A stretch of 64,000 nucleotides of DNA from positions 2,263,001 through 2,327,000 of the forward strand of contig NZ_CP097329.1 in assembly GCF_030323025.1 (NCBI RefSeq), read 5' to 3'. The notes below the pieces were generated by a model. The model was given only the letters and a program-made list of their open reading frames with translations, searched no databases and had not been told where the DNA came from. Position numbers and translations under genes: made by a program. Source of the DNA: Pseudanabaena mucicola str. Chao 1806 (GTDB taxonomy: Bacteria; Cyanobacteriota; Cyanobacteriia; Pseudanabaenales; Pseudanabaenaceae). Each line of letters starts with the position of its first letter. Position 1 is the first letter of the stretch. Positions 32,426 to 43,175 of the stretch are shown here, piece after piece.

Positions 32426-33291
32426 TGATGACTAGCTTCCCAGCCCAATATTGCCATCTTGCGTTCCAATCCCCAGCGATAGCCGCCTAGTTCACATGAT
32501 TCCCTAATCACCCGATGACATGGAATCAGGAAGCTAATGGGATTGCTGCCAACAGCATTACCGATCACTCTAGCAGCATTGGGACGACCAAGCGATCGCC
32601 CTAAGCCTTGATAAGTGGTAATCCCACCAAAGGGTATCCGCAGGAGCGCTCGCCATACTTGAATTTAGAAATTAGTGCCTTTGACGTAGAGCTTTAGGGG
32701 TGGTTGTTTCGTGTTATTCAGATTAGGAAGATGGCTAAATAATCGATCGCAAATTGGTTGCGTAATTTGGCGATCGCTGATAATCTCAGCGTTTGACCAT
32801 TCCTCTCGCAACATTAATTCAGCAGCCTGATCATTCATTCCATCCAGAAAATATAAATTACAAATACCGCGCTCTGTCGTAGCAATCAGGCAATCTCCAA
32901 ACATGGTTTCATGGATGCCATAGCAAATCTCTAAACCCGCACCACCAGTTTTAAACTCTTGCGGTGACATCGCTTCGAGGTTCACAAATAGGTCATGTAA
33001 TCGTCCTGAACTTGATAAACCCACATCTCCAGTCAGTTCCAATAAGTTCTTTGTTTCCACAATTTTGGACTTAGCATATTCCACCGTCAGATATTGCAAA
33101 AATCGCTTGGGACTAATCCCCGCCCATTTAGTAAACAAGCGCTGAAAGTGATATTCACTCAGATGTACCTGCTGCGCGATCGCGGCGAGGTATGGCTGTT
33201 GTCGATGGTTCTGAAGAATAAAGGCGATCGCTTTTGCCATCAGTTCATAGGTTGCGCGATCGCCCATATTCTCATCTAAAAATTTGTCCAT
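32422..33291 (-). pseudogene. Ada-like alkyltransferase with in-frame TAA
   Basis: The reading frame from ATG 33291 gives an AraC-type HTH (about 20-110: YHFQRLFTKWAGISPKRFLQ) and the start of an O6-alkylguanine alkyltransferase domain, then TAA at 32665-32667. The same frame continues for 80 codons: IQVWRALLRIPFGGITTYQG, NAVGSNPISFLIPCHRVI and GGYRWGLERK. The catalytic PCHR cysteine thus lies beyond the stop. Intact relatives have FQIQVW, so a CAA to TAA change is likely. Full length would be about 289 residues. It overlaps the convergent oxidoreductase by 4 bp. Confidence 0.82.
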
Positions 33292-33583
33292 CGGGGAGTT
33301 TATGCTCAGCAATATGAGGGTTTACACCCAATTTAGCAATGATTTGATGCTTGGGCTAACCGTTTCTTGCGATCGTTATGTTCAAATGGCGTTTTATCAA
33401 CACTTTGTAAGCAATATTCAGTCAATGCAAATACGACTATTTTCTAAATTAGCCTAATTCAAGTTTAATATGATTTAACTAACTAGCCTAGAAATATCAT
33501 TATTCGATTATAATAATCTGGATTTACATCTACATATAGATAAGAACTTATTTTAGTGAGTTTGTTGAAGGAGAGTTGAAAGA

Positions 33584-36500
33584 ATGAGTGCAACCGTCAG
33601 CCAAAGCTGGAAAGAGCAGCTTAACTTGGCTGATAAACAAGTGCCTGAATTTTTTAGGAGCTTTGAGGAACTTGAGGCTGCACAGATTGGTATATCTCAA
33701 ATTCATGTCATGCGGAGAGCTTGGCAAGATTTAGAACTGGATGGAATTCTATATCAAGATAAATCACCATACATCTACATTAAGGAAGTCTCTAGTATTG
33801 ATCCACAGGAGACTAGGAAGTTACACCGTAGACTTTGGAATCAGGGAATTGCTCCATTTTTATTAGTAGTTAGCCCCAATGAATTTCACATATACTCAAG
33901 CCTAGTACTTCCAGCCAAGGAAAATGAAGATATAAATGATGATCACCGATTAGTTGAAGTATTGAGCCGAGCCGCAGATGCTCTGGAGTTAAGGCAGTTT
34001 GCGCGATCGCTAGAATTTGGTGAATTGTTCCATAAGAAACCAGCATCTTTTAATCCTGAATTACGAGTTGATCGTTACTTACTCAAAAACCTCAAGGCGG
34101 CGAGAGAAAAACTGCTTGAGCCAGTAAAGGGTGTAGCGCTTGATCTCAAAATCATCCATGCTTTGCTGTGGAGAGTAATTTTTGTTTCTTATTTAACTGA
34201 TCGAAAGATTATTGATGCAAGGTACTTTCATAAGATTGGAGCTACTGATGTTACAAGCTTACGTCAACTGTTAGAAAAGTTTTCACCAAAAAAATCTAGA
34301 GAATTACTTTATGCATTATTTGAACAATTAAAGCAGGATTTTAATGGCGATCTATTTGAGGGAGATTTAATTGAAGAACGTGAATATGTACAAAATTCTC
34401 ACATAGACATACTGGGAAAGTTACTACGAGGAGATGATCTCAGCAATGGTCAGCTTTCACTTGGTTTTTGGGCTTATGATTTTAGTGTTATTCCAATTGA
34501 AACTATTAGTGGAATTTACGAACAGTTTCTAGAAGTAGAATCGCCTACACAAAAGCGAGAAAGTGGAACGTACTATACACCGAGGTTTCTCGCTGAAGTA
34601 GTTCTTGATGTAGCCCTAGAGAAATTTACATCTCTTTCAAATAAAAAATTCTTAGATCCTGCCTGTGGTTCAGGTATCTTTTTAGTGTCGTTATTCAACC
34701 GCTTAGCCGAAGAATGGCTGAGAAACAATCGGAATGCTAGCAATAAATATCGTGCTGATTCATTGAGTAATATTCTCCAAAATCAACTGTTTGGAGTTGA
34801 TGCCGATCCTACAGAAACGGCTTGTCGAATTGCTGCATTTAGCTTGTATCTGGCTTTTCTCGATCAGTTAGAACCAAGGGCAATTCAAGAATTACAAGAA
34901 CAGGGCAATGTGCTGCCGAATTTAGTAGGGCATAATATTCTTTGTCAAGATTTCTTTGATGATGCACTTGTATTACCCAATGATTTTGATTTAGTTGTAG
35001 GGAATCCTCCTTGGGCAAGAGGTTCTAATAGAAAAACTTCAATTGAGCGGTGGTGTGAAAAGGAAAAGCTGCCATTTGCACAAAAACAACTAGCATATGG
35101 CTTTATTTGGAAAGCTCCACTCCATCTTAAAGATAATGGACTTATTTGTTTTCTACTTCCTTCATCAATATTACTCAACCACCAAACTAAAGCTTTAGAA
35201 GCTCAATATCATTGGCTATCTACTTACACAATCAAGCAAGTTATCAACTTGTCAGACATGAGATTTTATCTTTTTGATGGAGCAATTCGACCAGCGTTGG
35301 TTATCAGCTATACGAAAGAGTTACCAAATAACTCGAAAGGTTTTATTGACTATTTAGTCCCCAAATCTGAAAGAGAAATTCTGAGTGCAGAAATTATAAG
35401 TATTGCACCAGAAGACCGTGTACAAATTAACTTAGAGCGCGTACTTCATGATCTTAGTAGCGGTGAAGCTGCACCTGATTGGAAGCGGTATTTTTGGGGA
35501 ACACCAAGAGATCAAAAGTTTTTAGATCGATTAAGCTCTTTACCTCGTCTCAGTGATGTAGTTTCTCAACTTAAGCCCAAGTCCATTAATGAAGTGAAAA
35601 AAAGATGGATTATTGGACAAGGATTTCAACCAAAGAGCTTAAATGATGATGCTAAGGATATTGAAAGAATAAATAGTGGAAAGAATCCATATAAAACCTA
35701 TACACCCAATTGGTCTTCAGATGATTTATTTATAGAAGGTAGAAGCAAAGCTATAGATTTGCTAATAATAGAGTCTGACTGCGATAAAATAGGGGAGCGA
35801 TTCAAACGCTTACGTCGTTTACCCGACAATCAAATTTTTCAAGCACCTCATGTCCTAGTCAAGAAGGGGTTAGGAGTAGCTTATTCTGGATTTAATGTTT
35901 ATTTCCAAGATGCTTTTCAAGGTATTCATGGCTCAGCAAAAGATGCAAATCTCCTAAAGTTTCTATCTGTAGTTCTTAACTCTAATCTAGCATCATATTT
36001 TCTATTTCATAGCTCTGCAAATTGGGGGACTGAGCGCGATATAGTTCATGAAGAAGAATTGCTTCGTATGCCATTTCCATTCCCAGAAGATACATATTCA
36101 CCGATTGAATCACAATCAATTATTAGAGAGATTAATTCTATATTTAAACGCTTAAAAAATAAACTTGAGCGTAATATTTTAGATAGAGAAAACTTAATTG
36201 AGCAGACCAAACAAGAGCTACTTGTATATGTATATCGCTATTATCAAATTGACGAACTCGAACAAGTCTTGATCAATGACACGGTAAATTGTTGGATTCC
36301 TAGCTCTACACCAAATCGGGGTAGTCTAAATATCCCTACTTTAAAAGATAGTACTAAGTCAGAGCGTTTGGAATATCTCAATCTCTTATGCAATCTTCTA
36401 AATACATGGTCTAGGCGAGGTAGCTATCAAGTATCAGGAAAAATAATCTTTGCTTCTAATTCTAAAATGGCAGTTATAGTTTTACAAAAAGTATTGTCTC

Positions 36501-36745
36501 AGGATGTATCCCCTCTTAACGAGCATACATCCAGCCCTGAATTAGATAAAGTCATTAGCAGAATTTTAAATCTCCTGCCAAGGCATGAGGGTAGTATTGC
36601 GTATTACCGTAATCTCAAGGTCTTTGATAGAGATAAATTATATATCCTCAAACCGCTAGCCTATAGATTCTGGAGCAAAACAACGGCTCTTAATGACGCT
36701 GACGAAATTGCAGCAGCTATCCTTACTAACGATTACAGGGGGTGA
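33584..36745 (+). CDS. Eco57I-type N6-adenine DNA methylase (type IIG-like R-M protein)
   Basis: The 1053-residue protein has an N-terminal region of about 300 residues, then the amino-methyltransferase block: SGTYYTPRFLAEVV (327-340), SAM motif FLDPACGSGIF (356-366) and catalytic NPPW (474-477). A long C-terminal target-recognition region follows. Type IIG enzymes normally carry a PD-(D/E)XK nuclease at the N-terminus; here I see no convincing D...ExK there, while the next gene (3 bp downstream) supplies one. So cleavage may be in trans. The gene seems part of an accessory island; GGAGAG precedes the ATG. Confidence 0.82.
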   Translation: MSATVSQSWKEQLNLADKQVPEFFRSFEELEAAQIGISQIHVMRRAWQDLELDGILYQDKSPYIYIKEVSSIDPQETRKLHRRLWNQGIAPFLLVVSPNEFHIYSSLVLPAKENEDINDDHRLVEVLSRAADALELRQFARSLEFGELFHKKPASFNPELRVDRYLLKNLKAAREKLLEPVKGVALDLKIIHALLWRVIFVSYLTDRKIIDARYFHKIGATDVTSLRQLLEKFSPKKSRELLYALFEQLKQDFNGDLFEGDLIEEREYVQNSHIDILGKLLRGDDLSNGQLSLGFWAYDFSVIPIETISGIYEQFLEVESPTQKRESGTYYTPRFLAEVVLDVALEKFTSLSNKKFLDPACGSGIFLVSLFNRLAEEWLRNNRNASNKYRADSLSNILQNQLFGVDADPTETACRIAAFSLYLAFLDQLEPRAIQELQEQGNVLPNLVGHNILCQDFFDDALVLPNDFDLVVGNPPWARGSNRKTSIERWCEKEKLPFAQKQLAYGFIWKAPLHLKDNGLICFLLPSSILLNHQTKALEAQYHWLSTYTIKQVINLSDMRFYLFDGAIRPALVISYTKELPNNSKGFIDYLVPKSEREILSAEIISIAPEDRVQINLERVLHDLSSGEAAPDWKRYFWGTPRDQKFLDRLSSLPRLSDVVSQLKPKSINEVKKRWIIGQGFQPKSLNDDAKDIERINSGKNPYKTYTPNWSSDDLFIEGRSKAIDLLIIESDCDKIGERFKRLRRLPDNQIFQAPHVLVKKGLGVAYSGFNVYFQDAFQGIHGSAKDANLLKFLSVVLNSNLASYFLFHSSANWGTERDIVHEEELLRMPFPFPEDTYSPIESQSIIREINSIFKRLKNKLERNILDRENLIEQTKQELLVYVYRYYQIDELEQVLINDTVNCWIPSSTPNRGSLNIPTLKDSTKSERLEYLNLLCNLLNTWSRRGSYQVSGKIIFASNSKMAVIVLQKVLSQDVSPLNEHTSSPELDKVISRILNLLPRHEGSIAYYRNLKVFDRDKLYILKPLAYRFWSKTTALNDADEIAAAILTNDYRG

Positions 36746-36748
36746 TTA

Positions 36749-37390
36749 ATGGCAATTATTGGTAGTCCAAAAGAATTTCTGGAAATAGAAGACTTTATCC
36801 CGAAGATTTTGGCAATGGTTCTTGATGCTTGGTCAAGTTTTGAAAAACCGTTACCAAATAAGCATGAAGTTCCTATTACAAGAAAGTTTCGCCTAAAGCT
36901 ATTGCAGCACAGAGATTTGAATGGGCTTCCTCTCAAAATCGAGCGTGAAGTGTCAATAGATGATCCTGAAACAGGAGAAGAAATTGGGAGAATCGATTTA
37001 TGTCTTACTTGTGATCATCGCAGTGAAGTCTACTTTGCGTTTGAGTGTAAGCGACTAAACGTAATTGATAAGAATGGTCGTACTAGCACCCTTGCAAAAG
37101 AGTATGTGATGAATGGGATGACTAGATTTGTTGGCTCAAATCCACAATACGCAATAGGTTTAAAGCAAGGCGGCATGATTGGATATGTGATGAATGGAAA
37201 GATTGATGGTGCGATTACAGCCGTTAATCAACAAATCAAAGATCACTACAAAGATTTACAAATGAAACCCTCGAAAGGGTTAAATCCGTCATCTAGATTG
37301 CCAGAAAATTTGATCAGAGAAAGCTTGCACCATATACCAGATCGTGATTTTACAATTCATCATGTATTTTTGCCTATTTCAACAATCTAA
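36749..37390 (+). CDS. PD-(D/E)XK nuclease-like partner of the methylase
   Basis: The 213-residue protein carries a plausible restriction-type core: D83 (in EIGRIDLCL), then E99-C-K101 (VYFAFECKRLN), with a preceding IEREV helix/strand. A downstream conserved-looking block reads EYVMNGMTRFVGSNPQYAIG. It starts 3 bp after the methylase stop, so the two are co-translated and probably form one defence unit. The last three codons (ACA ATC TAA) lie in sequence shared with the glnT fragment, so the original C-terminus may have been replaced when that fragment joined. Confidence 0.65.
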   Translation: MAIIGSPKEFLEIEDFIPKILAMVLDAWSSFEKPLPNKHEVPITRKFRLKLLQHRDLNGLPLKIEREVSIDDPETGEEIGRIDLCLTCDHRSEVYFAFECKRLNVIDKNGRTSTLAKEYVMNGMTRFVGSNPQYAIGLKQGGMIGYVMNGKIDGAITAVNQQIKDHYKDLQMKPSKGLNPSSRLPENLIRESLHHIPDRDFTIHHVFLPISTI

Positions 37391-38101
37391 AGTGTGTTCC
37401 AATTCCCAAGGACTAATGCGAGTACTGTAATCATTCCATTCGCGTTGCTTTAACTTGATATAGGATTGCACAAACTCTGCACCTAACACATCGGGCAAAA
37501 TCGTATTTGCTTGCAAACATCGCAACGCATCTAAAAGATTCGCTGGCAATTGTTTCACAGTACCAAAGGGAAGCGGATCGGTGTAGGAATTATTGTCATA
37601 GCGTTGACCTGCTTCGCGATTGTGTTTGATGCCATCGAGACCACTGGCAATAATTGCCGCAGGGAGGAGATAGGGATTCGCGGCTCCATCGGCGAGACGG
37701 AACTCAAAGCGACCTGCTTCGGGAATGCGGATCATGTGGGTGCGGTTGTTACCTGTGTAGCTGATCGTATTGGGCGACCATGTTGCGCCAGAGTTAGTAA
37801 CGGGCGCATTAATCCGCTTGTAGGAGTTGACGGTGGGGTTAGTCAAAGCACAAACTGCTTCTGCGGAATGCAATACGCCACCGATAAATTGATAGGCTAA
37901 GCTCGATAAACCGAGTCCTCCTTTTGCGTCATCAAAGAGATTTGTATTACCCTCTAGATCCCAAATGGAGAGATGGGTATGACAGCCATTTCCCGTTAGG
38001 TGAGGGAATGGTTTGGGCATAAAGGTAGCGCGGAAGCCGTGCTTTTCAGCGATCGCTTTGACCATATATTTAAAAAAAGCATGGCGATCGGCTGTGACTA
38101 A
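37381..38101 (-). pseudogene. Inverted 3' fragment of glnT
   Basis: This is a copy of the last 240 codons of the glnT gene at 57038-58345 (positions 57622-58343) in opposite orientation. The proteins agree at all 228 shared residues except one (His for Asn near the C-terminus), so the copy is recent. The 5' part is absent; the junction at 38101/38102 is exactly the end of an IS256-type element. The stop is TGA from neighbouring DNA rather than TAA. No product of full function is expected. Confidence 0.88.
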
Positions 38102-38525
38102 GAGAGTGTAAAGTGAAATGTGTAAAGTCTAGGAAGTATACAGAGAGACAATCAAGATACACAATAACTAACACCAAAAAGATGAATATCCGCAAAGAAT
38201 TGTTAGATGAATTACTGAAAGAATACAAAACACCACCTGACCTATTCGGAGAAGGAGGAATTCTGAAACAACTAACCACCGCACTAGTGGAGCGATCCTT
38301 GGAAGCAGAATTATCGACCCATCTAGGGTACAAGAAGCATGAATCGAAACCAGAAGGACAAAGCAACAGTCGTAACGGCTGCCAGAAAACAGTCCAAGGC
38401 GACTTTGGTGTAGCCGAAATCGCAGTCCCCCGCGATCGGCAAGGAGAGTTTGAACCACAACTGGTCAAGAAAGGACAAAATCGACTGTCAGGACTAGACG
38501 AGAAGATCATTGCCTTGTATTCGCG

Positions 38526-39852
38526 GAGAGTGTAAATTAAAGTGTGTAAAGTCTGGGATATATATAGAGAGATGATCAAGACACACAATTACCAACAATA
38601 AAACCGATGAATATCCGCAAAGAATTGCTAGACGAATTGCTGCAAGAATGTAAAACACCACCCGACCTATTCGGAGAAGGAGGAATCCTGAAACAACTAA
38701 CCACCGCACTGGTGGAACGAGCATTAGAAGCAGAATTATCAACGCATCTAGGGTACAAGAAGCACGAATCCAGACCAGAAGGACAAAGCAACAGTCGTAA
38801 CGGCTATAGCCAGAAAAAAGTCCAAGGCGACTTTGGCATAGCCGAAATTGCAATACCACGCGATCGCCAAGGCGAGTTTGAACCACAGATGGTAAAGAAA
38901 GGGCAAAGCCGCTTGTCAGGACTAGACGAGAAGATCATTGCCCTATATGCCAGAGGGATGAGTGTCAGGGATATCCAGTCCCAGTTGCAAGAAATGTATG
39001 GTGTCGAGGTATCACCGACCCTGATTTCCAATGTCACTGATGAAGTGATCGATGAGGTGAAACAATGGCAAAACCGTCCCCTTGATGCGGTTTATCCGAT
39101 TGTATTTCTGGACTGTCTAGTCATCAAAGTGCGAGACAATGGCAGGGTGATTAACAAGTCCCTGTACTTTGCCTTGGCGGTGAATATGGACGGATACAAG
39201 GAATTATTGGGTATGTGGATTTCACCGAATGAGGGTGCAAAATTCTGGTTATCGGTACTCACCGAAATTCGTAACCGTGGGGTCAAAGATATTTTGATTG
39301 CTTGCGTTGACGGTTTGACTGGTTTTCCCAATGCTATCGAAACGGTATTTCCTAAAACGCAGGTGCAGTTGTGCATTGTCCACATGGTCAGAAACTCGGT
39401 TGCTTTTGTACCTTGGCAACAACGCAAGCAGGTTTGTGCCGATCTCAAGGCGATTTATGCGGCGACGACGGAATCGGAGGCGGAGTTTAACCTTGAACTC
39501 TTTGCTGAAAAATGGGACAAACTATATCCCTCGATCTCCAAATCTTGGCGTAGTCATTGGGCGAACATTATCCCCTTCTTTGCGTTTCCTCTTGAGATTC
39601 GCAGGGCGATTTATACGACTAATGCGATTGAGTCGATGAATAGCAGTTTGCGGAAGGTGATTAAGTCTCAGCAGATTTTTCCGACCGATGAGGCTGCTTT
39701 CAAGCTAGTTTACTTGGCTATGCGGAATATTTCTAAGAAATGGACTATGCCCATTCGCGATTGGAAACCTGCTCTCAATCGCTTTGCGATCCTCTTCGAG
39801 GATCGGCTCCATCTCTAGCTTCTAGACTTTACACACTTTGCTTGACAGTCTC
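38526..39852 (+). mobile_element. Young IS256-family element nested in the old copy
   Basis: The 1327-bp element has terminal inverted repeats GAGAGTGTAAATTAAAGTGT and (complement of right end) GAGACTGTCAAGCAAAGTGT. An 8-bp target duplication TATTCGCG flanks it (38518-38525 and 39853-39860), as expected for IS256. One intact transposase gene is inside, so it may be active. Confidence 0.92.
38607..39818 (+). CDS. IS256-family (mutator-type) transposase
   Basis: The 403-residue DDE transposase has an N-terminal region with a C-rich/basic recognition segment ([15 protein letters not shown]), first catalytic Asp in [12 protein letters not shown], second in [13 protein letters not shown] and Glu in [14 protein letters not shown]. 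The domain order matches transposase mutator (Pfam Transposase_mut). It is complete and free of stops, and inverted ends flank it. Confidence 0.92.
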
Positions 39853-40483
39853 TATTCGCGAGGTATGAGTGTCAGGGATATCCAAGCCCATTTGTAAGAA
39901 ATGTATGGGGTCGAAGTATCACCAACGCTTGTTTCCAATGTCACTAATGAGGTAATTGATGAAGTCAAGCAATGGCAAAACCGTCCCCTCAATGCGGTTT
40001 ATCCAATCGTATTTCTGGACTGTTTAGTGATCAAGGTGCGAGACAATGGCAGGGGAATTAACAAGTCTCTGTACTTTGCCTTAGGCGTGAATATCGACGG
40101 GTACAAGGAATTGCTGGGTATGTGGATTTCCCCTAATGAGGGTGCAAAATTCTGGTTGTCAGTTCTCACCGAAATTCACAACCGTGGAGTCCATATGGTG
40201 CATAACTCGGTCGCTTTTGTGCCATGGCAACAACGCAAGCAAGTTTGCGCTGATCTCAAGGTAATTTATGCTGCTGCTTGCGGAAAGTGATTAAATCGCA
40301 ACATATTTTTCCTTCTGATGAGGCTGCTTTCAAATTAGTTTACTTGGCCTTGCGAAATATCTCCAAGAAGTGGACGAGGCTCTATTCGTGACTGGAAACC
40401 TGCGCTCAATCGATTTGCGATCCTCGAAGAGGATCGCCTCCATCTCTAGCTTCTAGACTTTACACACTTTGCTTGACAGTCTC

Positions 40484-42646: not shown

Positions 42647-42748
42647 AAGTAGCTCAACTTAATTAAAACCCAAACCAGAGTTTTGTTCCGCCCGCGTAGC
42701 GGGCGGAACAAAACTCGCGGTTTTTAGTTTACTTATGTCTAGCTACTT
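42647..42748 (+). repeat. Family 3 palindromic repeat, copy 1
   Basis: The 102-bp element has ends AAGTAGCTCAACTTAATTAA and TTTACTTATGTCTAGCTACTT. The core hairpin is GAGTTTTGTTCCGCCCGC with GCGGGCGGAACAAAACTC around tip GTA. Its right end supplies the stop codon of the minus-strand ORF ending at 42747. Confidence 0.8.
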
Positions 42749-43175
42749 ACAAATCATTACTACGCTTGATCGAAAATAAATCTGATTCGGCATATTTCAG
42801 GCTGTCTTGATGCTGAAGCTTTAGAAAGATAAACTCACTGCCATTTGTGACCAATCCAAACATAGGGCGATCAGAATAGGGATTTGCCATCATGTAAGTC
42901 AATGCTTGAGGAATCACAACTTCTATAAAGGTCTGCTTCGCAAACCTTTCAGCAAATATCTTGGTTTGGTTTTGAGCGCAAAGTGCTAAACCCATTCCAT
43001 CTAATTTTGCCGTAGTCGCCAGATCAAAACGGATTGGTTGTGGTGAATTAACTAGCGATTGTAAAACTTCCGTAGGATGAGCGTCTCTTTCCACCTTGGC
43101 TAAACGAGTGGTGAGATGTTTCCCAAATAGCCCTACTTCTGTCAGCGATCGCGCAAACTCGGCTTCTGACAACAT
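42747..43175 (-). pseudogene. Truncated restriction-type (HsdR-N-like) fragment
   Basis: The 142-residue frame ends in a segment typical of cyanobacterial 'restriction endonuclease subunit R'-like proteins: VIPQALTYMMANPYSDRPMF then GLVTNGSEFIFLKL, and SDLFSIKRSNDL. The TAA stop comes from a family 3 repeat end. The first 75 residues (MLSEAEFARSLTEVGLFGKH) do not look like the same family, so the ORF may be chimeric. Function is unlikely. Confidence 0.55.

Follow-up and report, generated by a model that had tools for sequence, protein, structure and literature searches.

The 64,000-nucleotide stretch analyzed here comes from Pseudanabaena mucicola str. Chao 1806 (contig NZ_CP097329.1, positions 2,263,001 to 2,327,000; G000:C1:2263001-2327000), whose 4.53-Mb genome is assembled as one contig; the whole stretch is called the window below. 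On its plus strand lie two intact open reading frames (ORFs) separated by a 3-bp gap, one encoding a DNA methylase of 1053 amino acids and the other a putative nuclease of 213 amino acids. Since this pair is also found in distantly related bacteria and on plasmids, we suggest that the two genes most probably make up a two-piece restriction system, so far little noticed, that acts against foreign DNA. The features of the two genes, all on the plus strand, are as follows.

33584 to 36745, plus strand: gamma-type N6-adenine DNA methyltransferase, 1053 amino acids, Type IIG-like and without a nuclease motif (ORF, Pfam, PADLOC and pairing).
33692 to 33898, plus strand: putative degenerate PD-(D/E)XK-like N-terminal domain of the methylase, residues 37-105, in which the place of PD...ExK reads LDGILYQDKSPYIYIKEV (family alignment and comparison by eye with the HSDR_N domains of L149-L151).
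34655 to 34675, plus strand: motif I, DPACGSG, residues 358-364, S-adenosylmethionine binding (motif reading and 41-row alignment).
35003 to 35014, plus strand: motif IV, NPPW, residues 474-477 (motif reading and 41-row alignment).
35546 to 36223, plus strand: hypervariable region, residues ~655-880, taken from its position as the target-recognition domain (windowed identity of close homologues).
36749 to 37390, plus strand: stand-alone putative PD-(D/E)XK nuclease, 213 amino acids (ORF, invariant D, E and K, low-confidence model, EcoRV as best Foldseek match).
36866 to 36868, plus strand: codon of E40, an acidic position that is conserved and begins a predicted helix (alignment and model).
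36995 to 36997, plus strand: codon of the catalytic-site D83 (41 of 41 homologues).
37043 to 37051, plus strand: codons of E99-C100-K101 (E and K in 41 of 41).

A preliminary description of this DNA had called the first protein a Type IIG-like methylase, and library searches bear this out: it matches N6_Mtase (2.5e-18), Eco57I (1.1e-15) and MmeI_Mtase (6.1e-9) in Pfam, and REase_MTase_IIG in PADLOC at 1.1e-84. Homologues were compared in alignments of 35 and 41 rows, which retain both of the near-identical L031 and L032 and leave out contig-cut, split or broken copies (L018, L025, L073, L085, L091, L094, L095, L098, L099 and L126). D358 of motif I and N474 of motif IV are identical in all 41 paired homologues. 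Motif IV reads NAPW rather than NPPW in L079-L084, L086 and L090 and NATW in L126, and 11 of the 41 rows have A at that second place. Between close homologues, methylase identity falls from about 90% to 30-60% around residues 655-880, with conserved blocks on either side, as a recognition domain would look. The AlphaFold model of the methylase was unusable (mean predicted local distance difference test, pLDDT, 44.5), so no claim made here rests on the model alone.

The preliminary description had fixed beforehand the absence of a nuclease motif from the methylase N-terminus as a point on which its reading hung, and none was found. Residues 1-200 gave no Pfam match up to an E value of 10, HSDR_N and MmeI_N were likewise unmatched in the N-terminus, and residues 1-160 hold no hydrophobic-hydrophobic-[E/D]-x-K. 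Unlike the window protein, three single-chain enzymes from congeners, used as controls (L149-L151), all match HSDR_N (6.2e-11, 7.3e-12 and 7.7e-9) and carry 'PDY...F(V/I)EAK' within about their first 110 residues; a search of their genomes with the nuclease profile returned no match. Ten N-termini of the paired methylase family gave no HSDR_N match in Pfam, and the sole nuclease-like Pfam match among them, PDDEXK_2 in L028 (E 0.14), was rejected as too weak. In the low-confidence methylase model, residues 37-105 follow the order helix-strand-strand-helix-strand-strand, and after LDGILYQDKSPYIYIKEV comes a helix-strand tail resembling that of the single-chain enzymes. From this equivalence, which was judged by eye and without a profile comparison, we infer that the methylase N-terminal domain descends from the PD-(D/E)XK nuclease of Type IIG enzymes.

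The second protein we take to be a PD-(D/E)XK nuclease. The gene 3 bp away with D83...E99-x-K101 that the preliminary description reported is present, with E40 in addition, and D83, E99, K101, Y119, Y134 and H205 are identical in all 41 paired homologues, so the D...E-x-K site is not a chance occurrence. Position 40 is E in 33 homologues, D in 4 and another residue in 4, and position 100 is occupied by A, C, F or S. Pseudanabaena biceps PCC 7429, the closest relative with a name in the searched collection, carries a 5'-truncated nuclease copy at 91% identity; comparison with this copy over 181 codons gave nonsynonymous (dN) and synonymous (dS) values of 0.024 and 0.185, indicating purifying selection. 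The AlphaFold model, built on five sequences, has two helices followed by three strands (D83 in the second and E99 in the third), and then a helix, a strand, another helix and a last strand. Its best Foldseek match was EcoRV (E 0.023, probability 0.80), with more EcoRV chains in third and fourth place, and VIA realignment placed SwaI, BamHI, BglII and EcoRV all at Z 5 to 6 (SwaI Z 6.0, root-mean-square deviation 4.1, 139 aligned; BamHI Z 5.4, deviation 3.9, 141 aligned). These fold matches are weak, and the nuclease assignment is carried by motif conservation.

None of the libraries searched gives the nuclease a family name. The window protein found no match in Pfam, PADLOC or PHROG, and its family profile found none in the PDB up to E 10. 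The best E values among ten relatives were 0.034 in Pfam and 0.019 in PADLOC, and among nine relatives the best in PHROGs was 0.0021, to a family of unknown function. NrdR, the sole NCBIfam match of the window nuclease (0.0026), was set aside as chance; the six loci that a single-sequence search had weakly suggested as relatives (L012-L017) all proved to be true NrdR genes, and the NrdR loci L033-L038 were left out of the pair counts.

Methylase and nuclease form a near-obligate pair across phyla. In a survey of the phylum comprising 386 genomes, a nuclease profile made from an alignment of homologues found 26 places in 20 genomes. When both profiles were scanned, 25 of these places lay directly downstream of a methylase (one of them, in G064, with a broken nuclease), and the lone exception, in G087, is a 96-residue C-terminal nuclease fragment. 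The reverse search with the methylase (E <= 1e-60, at most two candidates scored per genome, the third methylase of the window genome therefore falling outside) gave 26 rows, likewise in 20 of the 386 genomes, which correspond to 25 genes, the G155 gene being cut by a contig end and spanning two rows. A nuclease stands beside every one of these 25: 23 are intact, that of G064 is broken, and that of G237 is truncated beside a split methylase. Within the genus (26 genomes), all ten methylases matching at E below 1e-140 have an adjoining nuclease, and the single-chain controls account for three weaker matches (E 1e-36 to 1e-43). In 35 pairs measured on the longest ORF, the gap between the two genes lies between -142 and +64 bp, and the window genome itself holds three such pairs (in the window, L029 and L086).

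A further relative is found in a metagenome-assembled genome of the Planctomycetota (L019). Among plasmids, the methylase matches 150 records, and in the 12 inspected, taken from the first 16 listed, the nuclease lies downstream in 12; the methylase reads as two ORFs in L091 and L095 and is without its N-terminal part in L094. Two loci were found in the viral contigs scanned (L096 and L097), both complete pairs, and in a phage collection the methylase matches nine records, none over 80% of its length. The preliminary description had proposed checking whether the pair is conserved and whether homologues of the second gene lie apart from methylases; these counts (25/26 and 25/25 in the phylum, 10/10 in the genus and 12/12 on inspected plasmids) speak for conservation and against separate homologues. 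Behind the pair in L074 (7485-10751) and L020 (8902-13107), the same strand carries another Eco57I-type methylase ORF, larger than the first; in L074 it shares 4 bp with the nuclease, and in L020 it lies 236 bp downstream.

The limits of the unit were drawn from a congener, G193, in which the site is empty (L153, 8304|8306): the homologue of window positions 32429-33378 is followed by one base and then by the homologue of 37383-38098. It follows that the unit is a two-gene cassette of 4.0 kb, to which two features belong.

33379 to 37382, plus strand: two-gene cassette, ~4,004 bp (blastn of flanks and junction sequences; empty in congener G193).
33568 to 33575, plus strand: ribosome-binding-like AAGGAGAG, 8 bases ahead of the methylase ATG (from the sequence).

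The cassette contains the methylase and nuclease genes only, the final 8 bp of the nuclease ORF being flank-like sequence, and the two genes have a G+C content of 37% as against 42% across the window. It may have been gained in the P. mucicola window or lost in G193. A promoter scan showed no excess (9 against 13.4 expected from shuffles), and in a terminator scan the excess was not clear (4 against 2.5 from shuffles).

We consider it likely that the pair is a split Type IIG-like restriction-modification (R-M) system in which a trans-acting PD-(D/E)XK subunit stands in place of a decayed internal nuclease. In such a system, the C-terminal recognition region of the methylase would read one asymmetric site, and methylation of an adenine on one strand would serve as the self mark. 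The methylase N-terminal domain, derived from an HSDR_N/MmeI-type nuclease, would have lost its cutting activity, and the PD-(D/E)XK protein would bind the methyltransferase as its R subunit and cut incoming DNA in trans at unmethylated sites. As the cassette has no translocase, cleavage should be close to the recognition site and without ATP. A broader proposal, which we put forward tentatively and regard as somewhat doubtful, is that of an unnamed, widespread R-M subtype in which the internal nuclease became a docking domain, an unrelated EcoRV-like nuclease acts in trans, and the variable first half of the nuclease and the recognition region are interchangeable specificity modules of a single locus. 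If true, this would be an R-M system whose mark and cut evolve and are exchanged separately.

The split arrangement can be set against an ordinary two-gene Type II R-M system, in which an independent nuclease would read the site of the methyltransferase by DNA contacts of its own, an explanation that we think unlikely. Nuclease and recognition region have changed independently of one another, and in both directions, which argues against it. The nucleases of L154 and L156 are 95% identical and their methylase cores 95%, with a recognition region at 64%, and in L024 and L026 the respective values are 87%, 94% and 60%; L156 and L158 present the reverse case, with 91% in the recognition region and 64% in the nuclease. 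Decayed copies bear on the same question. In the Pseudosulfitobacter plasmid locus L098 (4361-6657), a MerR-like N-terminus leads directly into the C-terminal part of the methylase (matching the profile from position 536), and the nuclease ORF is intact and keeps D...EFK. That the nuclease motif was kept while the methylase was reduced speaks for a nuclease that is not harmful alone and probably does not cut damagingly by itself, whereas an autonomous enzyme would be expected to be lethal once the catalytic part of the methylase was deleted. Two other copies are incomplete: a nuclease match in Rhizobium (L099) has a fragment and no whole methylase, and in P. biceps (L018, identical to G386 contig 319) the contig edge cuts the nuclease, and a search for the methylase at E <= 1e-30 found none.

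Several observations nevertheless weigh against a split Type IIG-like enzyme. The evidence that the nuclease needs the methylase is indirect; a nuclease that outlived the decay of its methylase is documented by a single record, L098, among the 12 plasmid records listed with 55.0% identity to the query nuclease. The nuclease model has a mean pLDDT of 54, its fold assignment being one of motif and element order, no Foldseek E value was below 0.001, and unrelated folds equal or exceed the Z scores of the nuclease folds (Rep15 above SwaI, TDP2 level with EcoRV). E-A-K is kept at the hairpin in three of 35 paired methylases (L076-L078), and a comparable triplet occurs elsewhere in residues 1-160 in six others of the 35, so a vestigial N-terminus is not established for every family member. 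Lastly, nuclease identity correlates with recognition-region identity across 29 close pairs, which are not independent (rho 0.55; the value for core against nuclease identity in these pairs is 0.33), and in a ten-member clade the partial r given the core is 0.43, a value reached by 23 of 2000 permutations.

This last correlation also speaks for an ordinary Type II system, together with loci at which the two elements differ jointly. L086 and L154 are allelic, standing at the same locus in two genomes of a single species, and are alignable over 6.4 kb on the left, including the methylase, at 88% and over 4.8 kb on the right at 97%, and they differ in both recognition region and nuclease; the same joint difference separates L086 from L156 and L158. 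The first half of the nuclease is the most variable in both L086/L154 and L156/L158. The idea that nuclease and recognition region are cleanly decoupled was dropped when a larger set gave this partial covariation. Covariation of the two would be expected if the nuclease also contacts DNA; it may touch either DNA close to the site or the recognition domain. On the side of the split reading, L086 and L154 show alleles of the recognition region being exchanged, as happens in R-M systems.

A methylation-guided system of the BREX/Pgl kind, acting without cleavage and with the second protein as a regulator or non-cleaving exclusion factor, appears very improbable to us. The methylase does score weakly against PglX models (NCBIfam BREX_2_MTaseX, 7e-14, 50.5 bits), and PglX, too, lacks an N-terminal nuclease, by the structure described in PMC11341690. 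However, these scores are far under the curated PglX cut-offs (50.5 against 400, 47.3 against 500 and 45.4 against 900 bits), the cassette has two genes only, and the D...ExK site is invariant. A further point against it is the neighbourhood: the gene clusters present within 4 kb in at least 3 of 35 loci are helix-turn-helix regulators, ABC-transporter ATPases, an integrase group, Cas12k genes and transposon genes, Mu-type transposases among them. Judged by eye, with library matches for part of them, none of these common clusters is a translocase or helicase.

Least probable of all, in our estimation, is a decayed or regulatory methyltransferase unit that methylates without restriction and is kept for gene regulation. 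The decay products would fit it, namely the broken nuclease of G064, the two broken genes of G237, and the fragments of G087 and P. biceps. A core regulator would not be expected to show the patchy presence (20 of 386 genomes) and plasmid carriage of this pair, which fit R-M, and the purifying selection on the nuclease and the invariance of its catalytic residues likewise argue against such a role.

The preliminary description placed the pair among R-M remnants, which the neighbours checked do not support: they are a truncated glutamine-synthetase-like gene, Mutator-family transposase genes and an AraC/Ogt gene. The one trace of R-M is a sub-threshold MmeI_N match (E 0.097) in a 142-residue fragmentary ORF at 42747-43175 on the minus strand, the rest of the window not having been searched for R-M genes; the same ORF gives an AAA_35 match, also sub-threshold (4.7e-6, just under the bit cut-off). 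On the minus strand at 37379-38065, only the C-terminal 228 amino acids of the glutamine-synthetase-like gene are left, the P. biceps relative (L018) being an intact ORF of 446 amino acids. The Mutator-family genes occupy 38070-40290, with one intact (38607-39818) and others partial. At 32665-33312 on the minus strand, an AraC-type helix-turn-helix runs on into the beginning of an O6-methylguanine methyltransferase domain (Methyltransf_1N, 32 residues, below cut-off), in what looks like a truncated Ada-like gene. In G346 (L152, 7292-10792) the position of the cassette is taken by another insert, of 3.5 kb, with a transposase-like and a CBS/GGDEF-like ORF (names given by eye). The occurrence of two kinds of content and of one empty case at this site points to an integration hot spot.

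Elsewhere, a small helix-turn-helix-like gene lies just upstream of the pair on the same strand in ~14 of 35 loci, and these genes fall into four sequence clusters. Annotation names them MerR or XRE in L087, L088, L092 and L093, and in the remaining loci they were typed by eye; Pfam gives MerR_1 in L024 and the same just below cut-off in L087. A regulator was rejected as a fixed part of the system, only ~14 of 35 loci having one and the window pair none. At 3 of the 35 loci, from cyanobacteria, a CRISPR-associated transposon seems to carry the pair as cargo: the pair lies between TniQ (8.5e-12) and an intact Cas12k (8e-290) in L079 (4476-13339) and between fragments of TniQ and Cas12k (5.6e-66) in L030 (4534-10604), and in L024 (427-7831) a partial Cas12k (1.1e-99) is found 1.6 kb upstream. 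Such transposons would be one route by which the pair may travel.

The layout could not be matched to a named system in the preliminary description. This needs softening, since split Type IIG-like systems with other nucleases have been known since 2016, when Blow et al. (PMC4752239) described Type IIG-like systems with the endonuclease on a separate peptide. AchA6III has a PLD endonuclease fused to a translocase, OspHL35III combines a translocase with a GIY-YIG endonuclease, and MexAMORF1192P, which is not MmeI-like, has an HNH endonuclease and two translocases (PMC4752239). AchA6III and OspHL35III resemble the window pair in having an MmeI-type methyltransferase and target-recognition domain without an N-terminal PD-ExK, and an endonuclease on a separate peptide. 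They differ from it in that the cutting partner in the window cassette is a lone small protein, PD-(D/E)XK by motif, with no translocase in the cassette. Such a lone split partner does not appear in the described panels of PMC4752239 or in the literature covered by a partial search made without REBASE, and it may be among the 76 Type IIG-like systems of that paper's S3 Table; the portions of PMC6856280 drawn on here contain nothing on a methylase with a separate PD-(D/E)XK nuclease.

PADLOC labels the methyltransferase alone as a Type IIG restriction enzyme and has no model for the nuclease, which plasmid annotation calls 'hypothetical' or a Fis regulator, and thus one subunit of a recurrent two-part system is missed, in Cyanobacteria, a Planctomycetota genome, Alphaproteobacteria and their plasmids. 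A comparable issue has arisen with PglX of BREX, which was once listed as Type IIG in REBASE, according to an R-M review (PMC12707154), and we would regard the Type IIG label on methylases of the window type as the same kind of issue. Like PglX/BrxX, the window protein is a gamma-class N6-methyladenine methyltransferase without a nuclease of its own, but it belongs to a two-gene unit with a nuclease and scores far under the curated PglX cut-offs.

Compared with orthodox Type II PD-(D/E)XK endonucleases such as EcoRV, BamHI, BglII and SwaI, the nuclease shares the motif and a weak similarity of fold, but it has no detectable sequence relation to them and its partner is a Type IIG-like methyltransferase. 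The nuclease family could yield new cutting specificities, and the related copies in G000, G391, G402 and G407 are natural swaps with which to ask which subunit picks the cut site. There is also a likeness to Type IIG enzymes themselves (MmeI, Eco57I; PADLOC PDLC03623), with which the window methylase shares the methyltransferase core, the C-terminal recognition region and overall length, and to which one family member, L087, gives a near end-to-end match (PDLC03623, 2.8e-250). What sets the pair apart from Type IIG is that the window chain is without a nuclease motif and the second gene supplies the nuclease; if confirmed, this would show how a fused restriction enzyme can shed its cutting domain and leave the cutting to a separate protein, with no need of an ATP-driven translocase.

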